From: Trueperaceae bacterium
GTDB lineage: Bacteria; Deinococcota; Deinococci; Deinococcales; Trueperaceae
Direction of reading: 5' to 3'
Length of the DNA stretch: 64,000 bases
Assembly (NCBI GenBank): GCA_002707365.1
Contig: PAMQ01000012.1
Span: 3,620 to 67,619 of the forward strand
Part shown: piece after piece, positions 10,377-22,947 of the stretch
Layout of the letters: each line of letters starts with the position of its first letter
Numbering within the stretch: position 1 is the stretch's first letter
Position numbers and translations under genes: made by a program
The notes under the pieces: model-generated
Told to the model about the DNA's origin: nothing
Databases searched by the model: none
What the model saw: the letters and a program-made list of their open reading frames with translations, nothing else

Positions 10377-13300
10377 ATGAAACTGGGCAATCTCACCATT
10401 AGTGGTTTTAAAAGTTTTGGCGAACGGACCGTGATCTCCTTTTCCCCTAGCGTCACTGCAATTATTGGGCCTAATGGATCCGGTAAATCGAATGTTATCG
10501 ATGCCCTTCGTTGGGTGGCCGGGGGTGGACGGGCTAGTACTTATAGAGCAGACTCAAGGACGGAATTGATTTTTCATGGGGCTGCTGGTAAGCGAAGCGT
10601 AAGTGTCGCCGATGTGGAGCTTGAATTAAAGGCTGAAAATGGAAAGTTGGCAATCCAAAGAAATCTATTTCGGGATGGGACTGGAACGTTAAAGCTTAAC
10701 GGGGCTAGTGCAAGGTTAATGGATGTGGAAGAGGCTTTGGTGGGGACCGGTCTTGGCAGAGGAGCTGTGGCAGTGATCGGGCAAGGGGAAGTTGGTGAAA
10801 TACTGATGGCCAACCCTGACCGGCTGCTAGCCTACGCCTCTGAGGCCGCCGGGGTAGCCCAACTAGGTAGGCGCCGGGAGATCACCATTGGCCGAATCGA
10901 TACTGCCCGGTCTCATCTATTAAGACTCGATGACGTCATGGTGGAAATGCGGGAACAGGTCACGGCCTTAAAAAGCGAGGCTGACGAGGCTGCACAGCAT
11001 GAATTATTGACTCGTGAAGTGTTGCAATTAGGATTTACCCGAGCCTACCAGCGCGTTGAGGGGTTACAGGCCAATATAGATAGCCTCCGGGGAGAAGAAC
11101 AGATGCTCGGGGAAGAAATCGCTAATCGGCGTGAAAAGTTGCGGAACCTTGGTGCCCAATTGATTGAATCTCGAAAACACCAAGTCGAATCTGAAACCGC
11201 TTTTCGAGAAGCCATGGCGGAAACCGAGGCCCGTCGGGGAGACCTTAGAGTAGCGGAAGAACGTTTACGGCGAGAACAACAGAGTGTTGAAGGGATAAGA
11301 ATTCGTTTAGCGGAAACCGAGGCGGAACTTTCGCGCTTAACAATCGAACCCCCTACGCCACCTGAAGGAAATAATGAAATCCTGTTAAGCGAGGTTGAAT
11401 ACGCCTCTGCTGCTGTTAAAACCGCTGAACAGGCCCATATATCTGCAGTTGATGAACACGAGGCAGCCTCCAAAAAGCACGACGAGTTGCGGGAGACTTG
11501 GGAAGCTTTTAGACAAGCGATGGATGCCTATGAAGTCCGACGCCAGGCCCTGGAAGAACGACTCGGTGAACTGCACCGACGACGTTCCTCATTGGGAGCT
11601 GTTCCCAATGAGGAATCCAAAATGATCCTAGACCTTAAAGCGAAACAAGCACGTCTAGAGCTAGTCCGAGCGGCCTTACGGGATAATGAGGGCCAAATTG
11701 CGCCGTTAAGGGCGGTCTTGATAGAGGCCCAAACTGAAGCGGGTGCTTTGGAAAGGGAATTATCACGGCTTAAAAAAGCGGCACGGGAAAGACACGGCTA
11801 TTCTGAAGGACCTAAACTTGCGCTCACTTTAGGGTTACCTGGCGTAATAGGGGCGGTAGCTGATTTGTTTGAAGTAGAGTCCAAGTATCGGGCTGCCCTC
11901 AACGCGTGTTTGGGCTACCGTGCGGAACAAGTTGTCGTAGAAAACACCGATGCTGGTTTAAAGGTTTTAGAAGTTATAAAGCAGCGTGGTTGCCGAGTAA
12001 CGCTTATACCCCTTGAACACAGGCCCCGTGTACCTTCGGAACAAGTCTCGGACGAAAAGAAAGACCTGCCAGGCCAATTACTTCGTAACGTCGTTAAAAC
12101 AGAAAAACGTTTTGAACAACTTGCCACAGAATTAATAGGAGACACTCTCGTTGTAACTAGCCTAGAGCAGGCTCTGCGGCTATCCGCAGAACAAGTAGTA
12201 GCGTCGGGGTTAGTCACTTTAAAAGGGGAGTGGGTGCGTAGCGACGGCACTTTTTCCGGTGGTGATCTGGAAGCTTCCGAAGGGCCTGTTGGGCACCAGG
12301 GAGATGAGGACGCGCTAGTAGGTCAACTAGCCGAGGCTAACAGGCGTGCAGTCGAAGCAACTCAACAACTAGACCAGCTCGAGGGGGATAGCGCAGACTT
12401 GATTGAGGAGGAAAGAACGGTAACCGATACTCTCGGTAACCTATTAAGCGAAGTGGCTGCGCATGAGGAATCAGTACGCGCAAGAAAGAGAGAGATCGCT
12501 CATATAGAGGAGTTAGAACGAGCGAACAGAAGGGCCTTTGAAGAGCTAAACGAACCCGCTAAGCCAACCGAGGTCGAAAGCTTAGAGTCAGGAGCGTCTA
12601 GCCTTACACGCTCCAATGACCAAATGGCGGCCTGTGTTGCAAAATTGATGCAGGCCCAGGAGGAACTAGCGCGGCAAAATACTCTCCAGGGCCTCTTTAT
12701 CGAAAGGTGGCAGTCGTATAAAACACTTAAAGCTCGGTATGATAACGACCAACAACGCCACAACGAGATAGTTTCCCAGATAAAGAGTCTAGAGACCACC
12801 CTGGCTGAAAGTCTTCTCAGCCAAGAAACGAGCGCTAAGGCAGTTGACATGGCTAGGGCTGCTATCCCAGGTAATCTCGACCAATGGGAGGCCCGTAATC
12901 AAGAAGCATCAACTGCCGTTTTAGAAATAGAGGAAAATCAGGATGACACCGTTGCGGAGCAGGCTAAATCTGGAGCAAAGCTAGAGGCAACTCGTTTGAC
13001 TCTAGCTAGGCGTGAAACAGCTCTCGAGTTAGCTCGAGACGACCTCGCGAGTTTCCCTGAAGGGCTAAAGCCGATTACGCTAGAGGAGCGTGAAGTCCGT
13101 AGGCGCCTTGGAGAGGGAGAACGCAAGCTTGAAAAATTTGGTCCCGTCAATCATCGGGCCCGCTCGGAATTCGAAAGTCGGTCTCAGCGACTGGGCGAAC
13201 TTGAACGAGAGCGCGAGGAGGCGATAAACGCTATCGACGAATTAGATAGCGTCTTAGCCAGAATTGATAACGAAACGACTACCAAACTCAATCAAACTCT

Positions 13301-13769
13301 GGAAGAACTTAGACGAAACTTTGAGCAGCACGTGATTACCCTTTTCGGGAAGGGGGCTATTTCAGATCTTCGTGTTGAACGTGAAGAAGGAAGACCCGTT
13401 GGCTTGGAATTAGTACTACAACCCCCTGGAAAACAAACCAAAGCACTCAACTTGTTGTCGGTGGGGGAGCGCACTATGGGCGCACTCGCTTTCTTGTTTT
13501 CGTTAGTATCTCAGAGTGATGCTTCAGCTAGCAAGGGATTGCCTGTAGCGATTCTCGATGAGGTTGATGCGCCTCTCGACGAATCCAATATTAGAAGATT
13601 CTGTTCATTTGTCGAGCGGTTAGCTGCTGAAGGTACTCAGTTCGTTCTGATAACTCACCAAAAGGCCACATTTGAGGTCGCAGATGCTATCTGGGGTGTT
13701 ACCACACAGGAAGGTGTCAGTCGGGTGTTTAGCATCCGACGTGATGAGGAGGTTGCGCTTAGAGGGTGA
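10377..13769 (+). CDS. smc: Chromosome segregation SMC protein
   Basis: 1130 residues, full length. ABC-type ATPase head split by a long antiparallel coiled coil. Walker A GPNGSGKSN at about 31-39; first coil ~165-480; hinge ~485-610 (GLPGVIGAVADLFEVESKYR, then RSDGTFSGGD); second coil ~630-990; then the signature LLSVGERTMGAL at ~1026, Walker B VAILDEVDAPLDE at ~1056 and the D-loop. The signature reads LSVGE, not the usual LSGGE/Q. It compacts and aligns the chromosome with ScpA/ScpB, which are not in the window. ATG at 10377; biotin ligase overlaps its stop by four bases. Confidence 0.95.
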   Translation: MKLGNLTISGFKSFGERTVISFSPSVTAIIGPNGSGKSNVIDALRWVAGGGRASTYRADSRTELIFHGAAGKRSVSVADVELELKAENGKLAIQRNLFRDGTGTLKLNGASARLMDVEEALVGTGLGRGAVAVIGQGEVGEILMANPDRLLAYASEAAGVAQLGRRREITIGRIDTARSHLLRLDDVMVEMREQVTALKSEADEAAQHELLTREVLQLGFTRAYQRVEGLQANIDSLRGEEQMLGEEIANRREKLRNLGAQLIESRKHQVESETAFREAMAETEARRGDLRVAEERLRREQQSVEGIRIRLAETEAELSRLTIEPPTPPEGNNEILLSEVEYASAAVKTAEQAHISAVDEHEAASKKHDELRETWEAFRQAMDAYEVRRQALEERLGELHRRRSSLGAVPNEESKMILDLKAKQARLELVRAALRDNEGQIAPLRAVLIEAQTEAGALERELSRLKKAARERHGYSEGPKLALTLGLPGVIGAVADLFEVESKYRAALNACLGYRAEQVVVENTDAGLKVLEVIKQRGCRVTLIPLEHRPRVPSEQVSDEKKDLPGQLLRNVVKTEKRFEQLATELIGDTLVVTSLEQALRLSAEQVVASGLVTLKGEWVRSDGTFSGGDLEASEGPVGHQGDEDALVGQLAEANRRAVEATQQLDQLEGDSADLIEEERTVTDTLGNLLSEVAAHEESVRARKREIAHIEELERANRRAFEELNEPAKPTEVESLESGASSLTRSNDQMAACVAKLMQAQEELARQNTLQGLFIERWQSYKTLKARYDNDQQRHNEIVSQIKSLETTLAESLLSQETSAKAVDMARAAIPGNLDQWEARNQEASTAVLEIEENQDDTVAEQAKSGAKLEATRLTLARRETALELARDDLASFPEGLKPITLEEREVRRRLGEGERKLEKFGPVNHRARSEFESRSQRLGELEREREEAINAIDELDSVLARIDNETTTKLNQTLEELRRNFEQHVITLFGKGAISDLRVEREEGRPVGLELVLQPPGKQTKALNLLSVGERTMGALAFLFSLVSQSDASASKGLPVAILDEVDAPLDESNIRRFCSFVERLAAEGTQFVLITHQKATFEVADAIWGVTTQEGVSRVFSIRRDEEVALRG

Positions 13770-14473
13770 TCAATGTTGTTAAAGAATTTGTTATCCAAAG
13801 TTTTAAAACTTTGGACTCAACCCAAGATCAACTGCATCGGCAAATTGCGCAGGGCCAGGACGTACATGGAGTCATAGTTGTCGCGGGTCATCAAACAGCA
13901 GGTCGCGGCAGGAATGGAAACGTATGGCAAAGCCCGACGGGCGGCAGTTACCAGTCGGTAGCGTTCCGGTGCCAAAAAGGTAAACCGCGAGCTGGTCTCA
14001 TTACTATAGCGATCGGAGTTTGTATTGCCGAGTCTATGGCTGTGAGAAACATTCCGATAAAGGTAAAATGGCCAAACGACCTGTATTTAGGTGATTTAAA
14101 AATCGGTGGGATTCTCGGTGAGCTATCTCGAGGCTATCTTATTCTAGGAGTAGGTATTAATGCAGCCCAGATTTCTAAATCAGTTTTGGGTGAAAATGGG
14201 TTCCGGTCGGTAGAAGAAGTACATCACCTAGTGAGAAAAGCTTTTCGCCGGACCATTAATGAGCTACCAAACACGAGGGATTATTCCAGACGCTTCGCCG
14301 AATTAGACTTTCTGGCAGGCCGGACAGTTGTCGTGAAAAATAGGGCTGAGGTGTTTTCGGGTGCAGCTCGTGGTATCGATCGTGATGGTTGCCTTAAGAT
14401 TGAGGGAGATGAGACGCTCGGCAACCAGGTGGTCTGCAGTGGTTCGGTAGAAACAATTGGAATAAGTGATTAG
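13766..14473 (+). CDS. birA: Biotin--[acetyl-CoA-carboxylase] ligase
   Basis: 235 residues, the short form without an N-terminal DNA-binding domain, so an enzyme rather than a biotin repressor. It activates biotin with ATP and attaches it to carboxylase carrier protein. Motifs: TLDSTQDQL, the biotinyl-AMP loop HQTAGRGRNGNVWQSPTGGS at about 41-60, VKWPNDLYLGDLKIGGIL near 96-113, LGVGINAAQ, and a small C-terminal beta domain (GRTVVV, GAARGIDRDGCLKIE). GTG start overlaps the smc stop in a GTGA arrangement, implying translational coupling. Confidence 0.92.
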   Translation: MINVVKEFVIQSFKTLDSTQDQLHRQIAQGQDVHGVIVVAGHQTAGRGRNGNVWQSPTGGSYQSVAFRCQKGKPRAGLITIAIGVCIAESMAVRNIPIKVKWPNDLYLGDLKIGGILGELSRGYLILGVGINAAQISKSVLGENGFRSVEEVHHLVRKAFRRTINELPNTRDYSRRFAELDFLAGRTVVVKNRAEVFSGAARGIDRDGCLKIEGDETLGNQVVCSGSVETIGISD

Positions 14474-15689: not shown

Positions 15690-15722
15690 CAGTAAACCTG
15701 AGGCTCCTCATTAGAAAAAGAT

Positions 15723-15750
15723 ATTTCCCATAACATCCGTTATTGGAAAT
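15723..15750. other. dif: Candidate dif site (chromosome dimer resolution)
   Basis: Twenty-eight bases in dif geometry: arm ATTTCCCATAA (15723-15733), centre CATCCG (15734-15739), arm TTATTGGAAAT (15740-15750). The arms are inverted repeats with one mismatch in eleven. Against Escherichia coli dif the left arm agrees at 7 of 11 and the right arm at 8 of 11, including the inner ATAA and TTAT next to the cleavage points. It lies between a Xer gene and hisS, near an apparent GC-skew reversal. Function inferred, not shown. Confidence 0.75.
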
Positions 15751-15773
15751 TAACATGAGCGAACGGTAGTTGG

Positions 15774-15789
15774 TGCGAAATTTTTCGCA
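15774..15789. repeat. Short inverted repeat beside the dif-like site
   Basis: TGCGAAA (15774-15780), TT, TTTCGCA (15783-15789), a perfect 7-bp dyad 24 bases from the dif-like site and upstream of hisS. Could be an accessory-protein site, part of the hisS promoter region, or chance. Confidence 0.35.
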
Positions 15790-15868
15790 AAGAAGATTGT
15801 TGTGGAGGTCCAGGTTTCGTTCCGTAGGGTTTTGCGTGAATGCGGTCCTGGGGGTAAACTCGACCCTT

Positions 15869-17149
15869 ATGGAGCTGCAAGCCGTTAAGGGGACTAAAGA
15901 TATTCTTCCAGATCAACAATTTAACTGGGAAAGGCTTTTGCTGGACGTAGGTACAGTTTTTCGCCGCGCTGGTGTTGGCAAAATTTCAATACCCATCTTC
16001 GAACACAGTGAGATTTTCTTCAGGTCAGCTGGGGAAAGTTCGGATTTAGTTGTGCAAAAAGAAATGTACACATTTGAGGACCGTGGGTCACGCTCGTTAA
16101 CGCTCAGGCCTGAATTTACTGGGGGTGTGCTAAGAGCATTTCATGAACACGGTATGGCAAGTTTACCGTCCCCGGTCAAGTTATGGTCACATGGGCCCGT
16201 ATTCCGCGGGGAGCAGGTACAACGCGGTCGACAGCGGCAATTTCATCAAGTCAATTACGAAGTTTTGGGAATCGAAGATCCACTTGTAGATGCCGAGGCC
16301 ATTAGCCTTGCTTATGACTGTCTTCGGGCATGTGGTTTGACGGGGCTGACAGTCAGCTTGGGTTCGGTCGGCGATCCTGAGGATCGTGAAAAATATAATG
16401 CTTACCTTCGCAAAAGCCTAACGCCATTTCGTGAACAATTATCTGAAGCTAGCCGCAACCGGTTAGATTTGAACCCCCTTAGGATTTGGGACAGTAAAAT
16501 TGAGGAAGACCAGCAGATAATAAAACAATTTGAACCTCCTCTTGAAGGGCTATCAGATAAGTCTAAACGTCATCACCTTGATGTAACGAAATACCTTACT
16601 GATTGGTGCATCCCGTTTACGATCGATCCTACGATAGTCCGAGGGCTCGATTACTACAGGAAAACTGCGTTCGAAATTCGCCATCATGGGATTGGTGCCC
16701 AAAACACCATTTTAGGTGGGGGACGATACGATGGACTTTTAGCCAATCTCGGCGGAGCTGACACAGCAGGTATTGGTTGGGCCTTTGGTGTGGAAAGGGT
16801 CTTAGATGCACTTAAGGGGAAAGACTCGCACACGCCACCAGTAGAAAAACCAGATCTTTATTTGGTGCCGTTAGATGATCTCGCAGTATCCGAGGTTGCT
16901 AATACGGCTCGTTCCCTAAGAGAAAGCTTTACAGTTCTCCACGCATACCGGGTAAGGAAGCCTGCAAAAGGACTTCGGGAAGCTAGCCGAATTCACTCTC
17001 CGCTCGTCGGTTTGCGGGGAGAAGCTGAACGAGGACAAGGCACTTACACTGTTAAAGATCTAGAGTCTGGGAAGCAAGTTAATATTGTCGAAAGCGAACT
17101 TAAAGAATATTTAATTAGCTGCGCGGCCGGGAAGAATGAGGAGTCGTAG
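15869..17149 (+). CDS. hisS: Histidyl-tRNA synthetase
   Basis: 426 residues from the ATG at 15869, the family's normal length; an upstream extension to 15770 has no family likeness and is rejected. Class II synthetase: N-terminus MELQAVKGTKDILPD, motif 2 around VFRGEQVQRGRQRQFHQVNY, HisRS motif IVRGLDYYRKTAFEI near 260, motif 3 LGGGRYDGL with AGIGWAFGVERV, and a C-terminal anticodon-binding domain (DLYLVPLDD onwards). Charges tRNA-His in the cytosol. aspS starts two bases after its stop, so the two form an operon, a common bacterial pairing. Confidence 0.96.
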   Translation: MELQAVKGTKDILPDQQFNWERLLLDVGTVFRRAGVGKISIPIFEHSEIFFRSAGESSDLVVQKEMYTFEDRGSRSLTLRPEFTGGVLRAFHEHGMASLPSPVKLWSHGPVFRGEQVQRGRQRQFHQVNYEVLGIEDPLVDAEAISLAYDCLRACGLTGLTVSLGSVGDPEDREKYNAYLRKSLTPFREQLSEASRNRLDLNPLRIWDSKIEEDQQIIKQFEPPLEGLSDKSKRHHLDVTKYLTDWCIPFTIDPTIVRGLDYYRKTAFEIRHHGIGAQNTILGGGRYDGLLANLGGADTAGIGWAFGVERVLDALKGKDSHTPPVEKPDLYLVPLDDLAVSEVANTARSLRESFTVLHAYRVRKPAKGLREASRIHSPLVGLRGEAERGQGTYTVKDLESGKQVNIVESELKEYLISCAAGKNEES

Positions 17150-17151
17150 TT

Positions 17152-18921
17152 TTGCATCGTAGTCATGGTTGTGGGGAGCTTTCCGAAGAGCAGGTCGGAT
17201 CTACCGTCAACTTATTGGGTTGGGTGAACAGTAGGCGTGATCTCGGGGGCCTTATTTTCCTCGAGATACGCGATTCAACCGGTATGGTTCAGGTAGTAGT
17301 TGAACCAGGAGAAAAGACGTTCGATGCTGCTGAAGTTCTTCGAAATGAATATGTGGTGGAGATTGCCGGTGTTTTGCGGCTTCGGCCCGAGAAACAACGC
17401 TCGTCAAAACACCCAACCGGGGGTGTTGAGGTGGTGGCTGATTCCGTTAGTACTTTATCAGAGGCAGAGACTCCTCCCTTCGTAATTGACGCCAACATTA
17501 AGGGCCAAGCTGTATCTGAAGATCTTCGCTTAAAGCATCGATATTTGGATTTACGCAGATCAGAAGCCTCAAGGCCCATAAGGCTTCGACACTCTGTTAG
17601 TAAAGCAATTTGGGATTTCCTGGACGCGGAGGGATTTGTTCAGGTTGAGACTCCCCTGTTAACCCAATCCACCCCTGAAGGAGCACGCGATTATCTCGTA
17701 CCATCTCGACAGCAACCGGGAAGTTTTTATGCTCTACCGCAATCACCCCAACTCTACAAACAAATGTTGATGATGGCTGGGTTCGAAAAATACTTCCAAA
17801 TCGCGCGGTGTTTTAGAGACGAAGATCTTCGGGCCGACAGACAACCGGATTTTACTCAATTGGATATTGAACTATCGTTCGTAGAACAGGAAGACGTTCT
17901 GGATCTGAATGAACGTCTTATGCAATATGTAATAAGGGAAACAACCGGAGAAACGCTCCAAATACCTTTCCAGCGTATCGACTATCAACGAGCTATGGAC
18001 GACTACGGAACGGACAAGCCGGATTTTAGGAATCCTTTGGTGCTAACTGATTTTACAGAAGCTTTTAAACATACAACTTTTGCGGGATTTGCGAAAACAA
18101 TAGAGAATAATGGTGTTATCAAGGGACTCGTGCTCCGAGGAGCCCAATTTAGCAGAAAGCAGATTGCAGGTCTCGAAGAAATCGCGAAAAGTAGCGGAGC
18201 CTCGGGACTCGGCTGGGTCCGCGCCGAAAATGAAGGTTTCCGCGGGTCACTAGCCAAAGCGTTGAGCCCGTCCGAGGCAGAAGCCATTACGCACGATTTA
18301 CCAGACGGAGGCCTGGTTTTACTGGTAGCTGGGAGCTGGAAGGTAGCGTGTAATGCTATGGGCGCAGTCCGACAATCGGTGGCCGAACTACTCGACCTTG
18401 TTGACCAAAATAGCAATACGCTTGCTTTCGGTTGGGTGGTAGATTTTCCTCTCTTGGAACCCGAGGATGACGGTTCGTTCACCTATATGCATCACCCGTT
18501 TACACGGGTGCATAATGATGACGTGCATTTACTTGAGACCCAACCAAAACTGGCTAGGTCTTTGGCTTACGACTTGGTCTTAAATGGGGTCGAAGTTGGC
18601 GGTGGCTCCCTCCGCATTCATCAAGCTACTCAACAGCAAAGAATGTTTGAAATTCTTGGGTTCTCTCCCGAAGAAATATCAGAGAGATTCGGATTTTTCA
18701 TAGACGCTTTGAAGTACGGAGCTCCACCTCATGGTGGGATCGCATGGGGCCTAGATAGATTGGTGATGCTTCTTAGTGGTGTAGCTAGTCTACGTGACGT
18801 TATTGCTTTCCCCAAAAACCAAAATGGTTCTGATCCGCTTACCGGGGCCCCTTCCCTTGTAGACCGGTCTCAAGTACAACAACTTGGCCTTTCCATTACC
18901 AACAACACACCCGAAGAGTGA
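17152..18921 (+). CDS. aspS: Aspartyl-tRNA synthetase, bacterial type
   Basis: 589 residues, matching the bacterial form with the GAD insertion domain. N-terminal OB fold (VNLLGWVNSRRDLGGLIFLE), class II motif 2 FQIARCFRDEDLRADRQPDF with TQLDIELSFV, GAD insert about 290-420, YMHHPFTRVH, and motif 3 APPHGGIAWGLDRLVMLL near the C-terminus. Start is TTG at 17152, with GAGGAG around 17138 overlapping the end of hisS. Because a separate AsnRS gene follows, this enzyme is probably discriminating (Asp only); that is inference. Confidence 0.95.
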   Translation: MHRSHGCGELSEEQVGSTVNLLGWVNSRRDLGGLIFLEIRDSTGMVQVVVEPGEKTFDAAEVLRNEYVVEIAGVLRLRPEKQRSSKHPTGGVEVVADSVSTLSEAETPPFVIDANIKGQAVSEDLRLKHRYLDLRRSEASRPIRLRHSVSKAIWDFLDAEGFVQVETPLLTQSTPEGARDYLVPSRQQPGSFYALPQSPQLYKQMLMMAGFEKYFQIARCFRDEDLRADRQPDFTQLDIELSFVEQEDVLDLNERLMQYVIRETTGETLQIPFQRIDYQRAMDDYGTDKPDFRNPLVLTDFTEAFKHTTFAGFAKTIENNGVIKGLVLRGAQFSRKQIAGLEEIAKSSGASGLGWVRAENEGFRGSLAKALSPSEAEAITHDLPDGGLVLLVAGSWKVACNAMGAVRQSVAELLDLVDQNSNTLAFGWVVDFPLLEPEDDGSFTYMHHPFTRVHNDDVHLLETQPKLARSLAYDLVLNGVEVGGGSLRIHQATQQQRMFEILGFSPEEISERFGFFIDALKYGAPPHGGIAWGLDRLVMLLSGVASLRDVIAFPKNQNGSDPLTGAPSLVDRSQVQQLGLSITNNTPEE

Positions 18922-19096: not shown

Positions 19097-20389
19097 ATGG
19101 AAAACATCAATCAACTTACAACCAGAATCGGAGAAGCTGTAACTGTTTCTGGTTGGATTAGCGGAGCCCGTAGCAGCGGACAAATAGCCTTCCTTAACCT
19201 TCGGGATGGGACAGGTTTTGTTCAAGCCGTAGTCACATTAGATCGGGTTGGAGAAAGCGTGTTTAACGCTGCCAAAGATTTAACACGAGAAGCCTCGTTG
19301 GTTCTACAAGGAACGGTCCAAAAAGATCCGCGCTCCCCGACAGGGGTAGAAATTAGCGTATCAGATCTCAAGGTAATATCCCGAACCGACAACTACCCTA
19401 TTACTCCCAAACCCCACGGTCCTGATTTCTTGTTCGAATCCCGCCATCTTCATGTTCGCCACCGCGGACCTTGGGCTTCTCTTCGCATAAGAGATACTTT
19501 TCTTCGGGGCCTTCAGGACTTTTTCGCTGAGCGCGGGTTCATTCGCTTTGATACTCCGATTTTTATGCCGACAGCGGTTGAAGGGACGTCTGATCTTTTT
19601 GCCGTAGATGTTTTTGGAAACAATGAACTATACCTTTCTCAATCAGGCCAGCTTTATGCTGAGGCAGGAGCTTTGGCGCACGGTAAGGTTTATACACTCG
19701 GCCCCGTTTTTCGAGCCGAGAAGAGCAAGACACGCAAGCATCTTCTCGAGTTTTGGATGGTAGAGCCGGAAGTAGCGTTCCTTGAACATGAAGGTAACAT
19801 GCAACTTCAGGAAGAGTTACTTTGTTACCTCCTTAATAGGATTATCGAAGAGCGCCCCGAAGAGCTAGATATCCTCCAACGCGAAGTTGGGCCACTTCAG
19901 ACAGCGGCTACTGGGCCTTACCCTCGTATCAGCTATGACGAAGCGATCAACATTCTGAAAAAACAAAACTTCGCTATATCTTGGGGAGATGATCTCGGGG
20001 CTCCCCACGAGACAGCCTTGAGCAAACTCTACGATCGTCCTTTAATTATTAAGGATTGGCCTACCAGTAGCAAAGCGTTTTATATGGAACCTTTCGAAAA
20101 TGATGCGACTCGGGTAAAAGCTAATGACGTTATTGCGCCAGAGGGTTACGGAGAAATTATAGGCGGGTCCCAAAGGATCCACGACTTAGATTTGCTAGAA
20201 AGTAGAATCCGTGAAAATAACCTTCCGCTAGATGCTTTTGATTGGTACCTGGATCTCCGTAGATATGGCAGTGTTCCCCATTCTGGTTTCGGCCTTGGAA
20301 TAGAACGAACCTTAGCCTGGGTTACTGGGGCATCGCACTTGCGGGACACGATCCCGTTCCCGCGAATGCTAAATAGGCTTTATCCTTAA
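19097..20389 (+). CDS. asnS: Asparaginyl-tRNA synthetase
   Basis: 430 residues from ATG at 19097. Class II: OB fold (VTVSGWISGARSSGQIAFLN), motif 1 near FDTPIFMPTAVEGTSDLF, then SQSGQLYAEAGALAHGKVYT and motif 2 FRAEKSKTRKHLLEFWMVEPE, which is the AsnRS-typical wording as opposed to the aspartyl enzyme, and motif 3 VPHSGFGLGIERTLAW. Its presence implies direct Asn-tRNA formation. The 175-bp gap after aspS carries its own inverted repeat and a possible promoter, so it may be separately controlled. The in-frame upstream codon at 19076 adds seven unlikely residues. Confidence 0.92.
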   Translation: MENINQLTTRIGEAVTVSGWISGARSSGQIAFLNLRDGTGFVQAVVTLDRVGESVFNAAKDLTREASLVLQGTVQKDPRSPTGVEISVSDLKVISRTDNYPITPKPHGPDFLFESRHLHVRHRGPWASLRIRDTFLRGLQDFFAERGFIRFDTPIFMPTAVEGTSDLFAVDVFGNNELYLSQSGQLYAEAGALAHGKVYTLGPVFRAEKSKTRKHLLEFWMVEPEVAFLEHEGNMQLQEELLCYLLNRIIEERPEELDILQREVGPLQTAATGPYPRISYDEAINILKKQNFAISWGDDLGAPHETALSKLYDRPLIIKDWPTSSKAFYMEPFENDATRVKANDVIAPEGYGEIIGGSQRIHDLDLLESRIRENNLPLDAFDWYLDLRRYGSVPHSGFGLGIERTLAWVTGASHLRDTIPFPRMLNRLYP

Positions 20390-22764: not shown

Positions 22765-22947
22765 GTTTGAAGCATAACGGAAACTTCAGCCAAGAGCTAC
22801 GCCTTTCGTGTGGTTGAGTGCGAACCTCACAAGAATTTCGTCAACAACTAGTGCAGGTGCAAACCCCAGCTGTCGTGGGTTTAAGAAACTTTAACGGCGT
22901 AAGGGAAAAAACTCACGAACGGCCTGTTTGTGAAAACTTTATCGGAT

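Follow-up and report, generated by a model that had tools for sequence, protein, structure and literature searches.

Xer/dif systems that rely on a single recombinase are well established, namely XerS/difSL, XerH/difH, archaeal XerA/dif and XerL/dif (PMC5357621, PMC2731167, PMC3325230, PMC2958812, PMC9765430), and dif sites outside the Legionellales, including those served by one recombinase, are described as having only partial symmetry (PMC9765430). The Deinococcota include radiation-resistant bacteria with several replicons, where homologous recombination, and with it the formation of chromosome dimers, should be frequent. A study of FtsK in D. radiodurans listed six candidate recombinases and deferred the question of which partners act at dif (PMC9764985), and neither Deinococcus nor Thermus nor Truepera is named in the main text of a broad dif survey (PMC3025954). 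In the literature searched, whose coverage left out most subscription journals, we found nothing direct on dif or Xer in these three genera.

The locus described here lies in a 64-kb stretch of Trueperaceae DNA (hereafter, the window), whose relevant features are collected in Table 1. Its central element, at 15723-15750, reads ATTTCCCATAA-CATCCG-TTATTGGAAAT; the two arms are complementary at 10 of 11 positions, with one mismatch, and both sequence and coordinates agree exactly with those given by an earlier, sequence-only reading of this DNA. The geometry is 11-6-11, the symmetry does not extend past base 11 on either side, and the inner bases are ATAA-N6-TTAT. No other element of this geometry reaches 10/11 complementarity in the window; when the 181 bp upstream of the gene are simulated with a first-order Markov model, an equally good element turns up in about 0.3% of trials. 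In addition, a pattern search tolerating up to three mismatches returned one copy of the site in the whole 2.08-Mb genome. A gap of 33 bp separates the element from the xer ATG (15689, minus strand), and a promoter and terminator scan of the xer-hisS intergenic region returned none.

Table 1. Position of the recombinase gene, the proposed site and the neighbouring genes in the window, with the loci of the second Xer subgroup in relatives
Feature	Position	Strand	Remark
smc	10377..13769	+	xer neighbour in many Deinococcota
Biotin ligase (birA-like)	13766..14473	+	xer neighbour in Trueperaceae
xer, tyrosine recombinase, 337 aa	14676..15689	-	Catalytic set R-K-H-R-H-Y
Intergenic region of divergent xer/hisS	15690..15868	.	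Contains the site
Left 11-bp arm ATTTCCCATAA, proposed Xer half-site	15723..15733	+	Arm architecture kept in relatives
6-bp core CATCCG, non-palindromic	15734..15739	+	Proposed orientation-giving overlap region
Right 11-bp arm TTATTGGAAAT, proposed Xer half-site	15740..15750	+	Identical in nearest relative
hisS	15869..17149	+	Divergent, beyond the site
aspS	17152..18921	+	Syntenic neighbour in many Deinococcota
Second-subgroup xer loci	L078:12501, L081:12731, L082:3877, L093:13556, L094:6552

The adjoining gene is a complete 337-aa open reading frame in which R197, K221, H287, R290, H313 and Y322 match the aligned catalytic positions of E. coli XerD; this confirms the intact tyrosine recombinase that had been placed 33 bp from the site. 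One PF00589 recombinase was detected in the genome (96.7% complete, 19 contigs), with no further XerC/XerD-type protein; this genome being a draft, a second recombinase could sit in the missing 3%. A single PF00589 match was likewise obtained in three relatives that are 97-100% complete (G015, G037 and G042), and some Trueperaceae have two Xer homologues. An FtsK with a gamma domain is encoded on another contig of the same genome.

As for the protein family, the best-scoring NCBIfam model was the XerA equivalog NF040815 (80 bits, cut-off 220), followed by XerC TIGR02224 (74 bits, cut-off 335), XerD TIGR02225 (63 bits, cut-off 330) and XerS NF003462 (54 bits, cut-off 267), and the Xer proteins of five relatives likewise fall far short of the curated cut-offs of these four models. 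The match to the XerH structure is weak (phmmer E 2e-5), PHROGs and Pfam assign the protein to a broad integrase family, and PADLOC returned no match. Since the scores fall so far under the cut-offs, the protein fits none of these four classes; the best reading, made by analogy, is that it should not be classed as XerA, XerC, XerD or XerS and yet would work like a single-recombinase Xer.

The pairing of site and gene recurs in relatives. The nearest named record, a Truepera sp. metagenome assembly, has a 75%-identical protein, which places the window in the Truepera family. In the nearest relative, with a Xer that is 75% identical, the site ACTTCCAATAA-GGGTTA-TTATTGGAAAT lies 14 bp before xer; its arms are kept, while core and flanks differ. 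Other Trueperaceae show new sequences in the same architecture, such as AAGTCTGATAA-CTAGCC-TTATCAGACTT, AAACCTGATAA-CTCGTC-TTATCAGACTC and CCCTACGATAA-GACGTG-TTATCGTAGGG. Besides Trueperaceae, three other families of the order have the pairing, with the 11-6-11 geometry kept and the sequence varying. Specifically, ATTCCCGTTAA-N6-TTAACGGGAAT or ATTCCCGTTAA-N6-TTAACAGGAAT stands beside xer in five genomes (G038, G046, G042, G050 and G059), ATGTCCACTTA-TTTCCC-TAAGTGCGCAT in two (G056 and G047), and AGTTCTGGAAA-GAATCA-TTTCCAGAACT is paired with xer in G041. The last genome carries both Xer groups distinguished below, each with a perfect 11/11 site (L171 on C1; L069 on C14); the site of its smc/aspS locus is ATCACCTATAA-TTTCAC-TTATAGGTGAT, and the GAATCA-core site lies elsewhere.

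We tabulated 28 loci, all of them loci where a site was identified and thus successes, and in 22 of these the site and the gene are no more than about 110 bp apart. At the remaining six the distance is 0.26-1.9 kb (G041b, G045b, G012, G001, G017 and G007): a candidate stands about 0.6 kb upstream in G001 and G017 and about 1.9 kb upstream in G007, and the sole candidate of G012, TACCCACCTAA-TCAGCC-TTAGGTGGGGG (9/11), precedes the aligned start by about 450 bp. Core length is kept across the table, and all 28 cores are non-palindromic, so that every one of the sites is oriented. No site was found near xer at, for example, G021, G048, G053 and G057, and the chromosomal loci of Deinococcaceae gave candidates of 7-8/11 only.

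To score the pairing we took the best 11-6-11 element in the 150 bp upstream of each gene, a measure unselected by sequence and applied, with hand-assigned start codons, to loci chosen with a plausible site nearby; the mean was 9.0/11 for 12 Trueperaceae-type loci (null 6.84; highest of 100 null means 7.25) and 9.78/11 for nine smc-locus-type loci (null 6.99; highest null mean 7.56). A correlation of arm divergence with protein divergence (Mantel r 0.61) was considered as a sign of coevolution and rejected, since the 6-bp core gives a similar value (r 0.60) and the correlation thus reflects shared descent.

A second Xer subgroup is present in several Trueperaceae genera, and some genomes hold both subgroups. 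In five genomes (loci in Table 1) its conserved site, similar to TTTGATAA-GACGAC-TTATCAAA or with a GTTGTC core, is 2.5-5 kb off. Genes of this subgroup have a GTTTGATAA half-site immediately ahead of the start codon. A separate observation concerns a Meiothermus-like genome (L166, G047:C27), where a second xer, away from the smc locus, is preceded at about 40 bp by the site ATTTCCCATAA-GTAAAA-TTATGCGAAAT; the left arm of this site is exactly that of the window site, despite the distance between the proteins.

We also considered the position of the locus on the chromosome. On its own contig (C12, contig coordinates) the site lies at 19,341, 3.6 kb from the maximum of the cumulative GC skew at 22,935, and the ori-ter position of this contig is read from the skew alone. 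Within the stretches read from relatives, the skew maximum stands at -1.0 kb from the site in G006, -2.5 kb in G046, +1.9 kb in G016 and +10 kb in G038; in G012 it is 31.5 kb from xer. Of six closed relatives, five have xer 169-180 degrees from dnaA (G012, 179.9; G006, 177.3; G038, 169.0; G046, 179.9; G056, 175.5), and the site-bearing xer of the sixth, G016, is at 90 degrees. The combined Fisher P is 1.6e-7 for the five and 5e-7 with G016 added, three of these closed genomes sharing one syntenic locus and hence not being fully independent. The skew turn at the site and the position of xer opposite dnaA in closed relatives add to the support that the sequence-only reading had offered. The polarity of the E. 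coli KOPS motif GGGNAGGG near the site is suggestive in G006 and G046; the counts being few, and uninformative in the contig of the window, we left them out as evidence.

The G016 assembly contains runs of N and has a second Xer homologue (L077, G016:C1:3581886) at 176 degrees from dnaA. The xer of G012 (L057) does not stand at the smc locus; its reading frame is longer, and it clusters with this second homologue. Both are found 176-180 degrees from dnaA. It looks as if the terminus system has been replaced in G012/G016.

The neighbours of xer in the window are smc, the biotin-ligase gene, hisS, aspS and smpB, and mobile-element genes are absent. An order of smc, xer-dif and aspS is partially syntenic across the phylum: several Trueperaceae and Marinithermaceae-, Meiothermus- and Deinococcaceae-like genomes have smc on one side of xer and aspS, asnS or smpB on the other. 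Because synteny of this type spans these families, the terminus locus is old. The Xer proteins of Trueperaceae are about 30-35% identical to those of the other families and the tree separates two groups, which may be diverged orthologues or the outcome of in-place replacement of one by the other; this tree, with E. coli XerC and XerD as its two outgroups, has long branches, and we therefore claim no deep placement. In the nearest relative (L002), the DNA beyond the site, some 40-250 bp ahead of xer, resembles a transposase gene, whereas hisS occupies this place in the window; this suggests an insertion beside dif in that genome.

Homologues of the recombinase also occur on plasmids. At E <= 1e-20 we obtained 63 plasmid records, all from Deinococcus and many of them strains of one species, with 74 places among them, which indicates that a replicon usually carries one homologue. 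We read 19 plasmid loci. An 11-6-11 site scoring 9/11 or better stands within 150 bp of the gene in six of them (null mean 0.4, maximum 4), and several others have elements of 7-8/11 with TAA-N6-TTA inner bases. Some of these sites (loci among L178-L196) abut the start codon at 1-3 bp, as does CCCATAGATAA-GGTGTG-TTATCTATGGG at 3 bp; a convincing site was not seen on the MP1 plasmid of D. radiodurans. It is plausible that these are replicon-private dimer-resolution modules on Deinococcus plasmids. A broader picture, to which we give an even chance of being right, is that Deinococcota use replicon-private single-Xer/dif modules, with the chromosome served at the old smc-xer-aspS terminus and secondary replicons of Deinococcus carrying their own xer with a distinct, often abutting and nearly symmetric site, each being resolved by its own recombinase, and with the two subtypes having replaced or duplicated one another in the phylum.

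All together, these data indicate that the 28-bp element is very probably the chromosomal dif site and the adjoining gene the one Xer recombinase acting there. What carries this reading is the single site next to a single PF00589 gene, their conserved pairing, the terminus position, the FtsK gamma domain, the catalytic set and the housekeeping neighbours; the angle in G016, the skew and site in G012, the displaced or undetected sites and the Xer paralogues of some relatives count against it. The earlier proposal of a self-contained dimer-resolution module is thereby supported: the pairing is kept in the nearest relative and in many Deinococcota, the pattern search returned no second copy of the site in the genome, and no further XerC/XerD-type gene was detected in it.

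Other explanations of the same features have to be weighed. The palindrome might be an operator for xer or hisS, bound by Xer or another regulator, with no part in recombination. Its place directly upstream of xer, and abutting the start codon on some Deinococcus plasmids, would suit this, and a protein bound there should influence expression; however, a fixed 6-bp non-palindromic core, arms of exactly 11 bp and a dif-like ATAA-N6-TTAT are not accounted for, the site is 0.6-5 kb from the gene in some relatives, and an operator leaves unexplained why the locus coincides with the skew turn and faces dnaA across the chromosome. On account of this terminus position we reject a pure operator, which we consider quite improbable, while a dual role as operator and recombination site is possible.

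Alternatively, two explanations would deny the pair its role as the main chromosomal system. The assignment to a broad integrase family and the plasmid homologues could point to the integrase of a mobile element, with the 28-mer as its attachment site, but a second (attL/attR) copy is missing from the genome, the neighbours are smc, biotin ligase, hisS and aspS in a partial synteny that crosses families, the genome would have no other Xer for dimer resolution, and viral contigs yielded neither relatives nor mimics of the site. Such an origin is extremely improbable, and we reject a phage or ICE integrase with its attachment site in view of the single site copy and the housekeeping neighbours. 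The pair could also be accessory to a main system, made up of two further Xer genes and another dif, that was missed in a draft of 19 contigs, all the more as several Trueperaceae have two Xer homologues; that would leave unexplained the skew turn at the site on its own contig, the terminus position of the locus in closed genomes and the single PF00589 match of three nearly complete relatives, and we regard it as very improbable.

Returning to the single-Xer/dif reading, by analogy with known systems two Xer monomers would occupy the two near-identical 11-bp arms, as the near-symmetry of the arms, already remarked upon in the sequence-only reading, would suit one protein on both. The FtsK motor, whose gamma domain this genome encodes, would help to unite the two dif sites of a chromosome dimer at the septum; the sites would synapse, and FtsK would start the exchange. 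Tyr322 would cut the strands where the 6-bp core meets the arms, and strand exchange via a Holliday junction would yield two monomers. Given that the site is directly upstream of xer, binding of Xer may also regulate its own transcription. Each of these activities, from binding through cleavage to strand exchange, is a prediction, as are FtsK dependence and autoregulation.

In conclusion, the single-recombinase kind of Xer/dif system is known; what is new, and well supported, is a recombinase-site pair of Deinococcota for which we found no published description in the literature searched. A defined pair at the terminus, recurring across much of this phylum, makes the question of how its members resolve dimers directly testable, and near-symmetric sites for one protein are simple substrates for studying how FtsK orders a complex of one kind of Xer.

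On the best reading, again by analogy, gene and site form a single-Xer/dif dimer-resolution module like XerS/difSL or XerH/difH. With XerH/difH of Campylobacter and Helicobacter it has in common one recombinase with a complete catalytic set, a site usually linked to the gene, and the terminus (PMC2731167, PMC3325230, PMC5241119), whereas the proteins are only weakly similar (the phmmer match noted above) and the window site, probably of another sequence than difH, has nearly symmetric arms. XerS/difSL of streptococci and lactococci likewise combines a single recombinase of similar size with a site immediately beside its gene, but difSL is 31 bp long with an 11-bp central region, compared to 28 bp and a 6-bp core in the window (PMC5357621). 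The long uninterrupted inverted arms and the single recombinase recall XerL/dif of Legionellales; in L. pneumophila, however, dif and xerL are more than 400 kb apart, against 33 bp here (PMC9765430). Archaeal XerA/dif has a single recombinase, the 11-6-11 geometry and, in some species, gene and site side by side, yet it is reported to be independent of FtsK, while the genome of the window encodes the gamma domain (PMC2958812, PMC5357621). Finally, E. coli XerCD/dif shares the 28-bp 11-6-11 site, the inner ATAA-N6-TTAT, the terminus and the FtsK gamma domain, and it differs in using two recombinases on unlike half-sites in place of one recombinase on near-identical arms.
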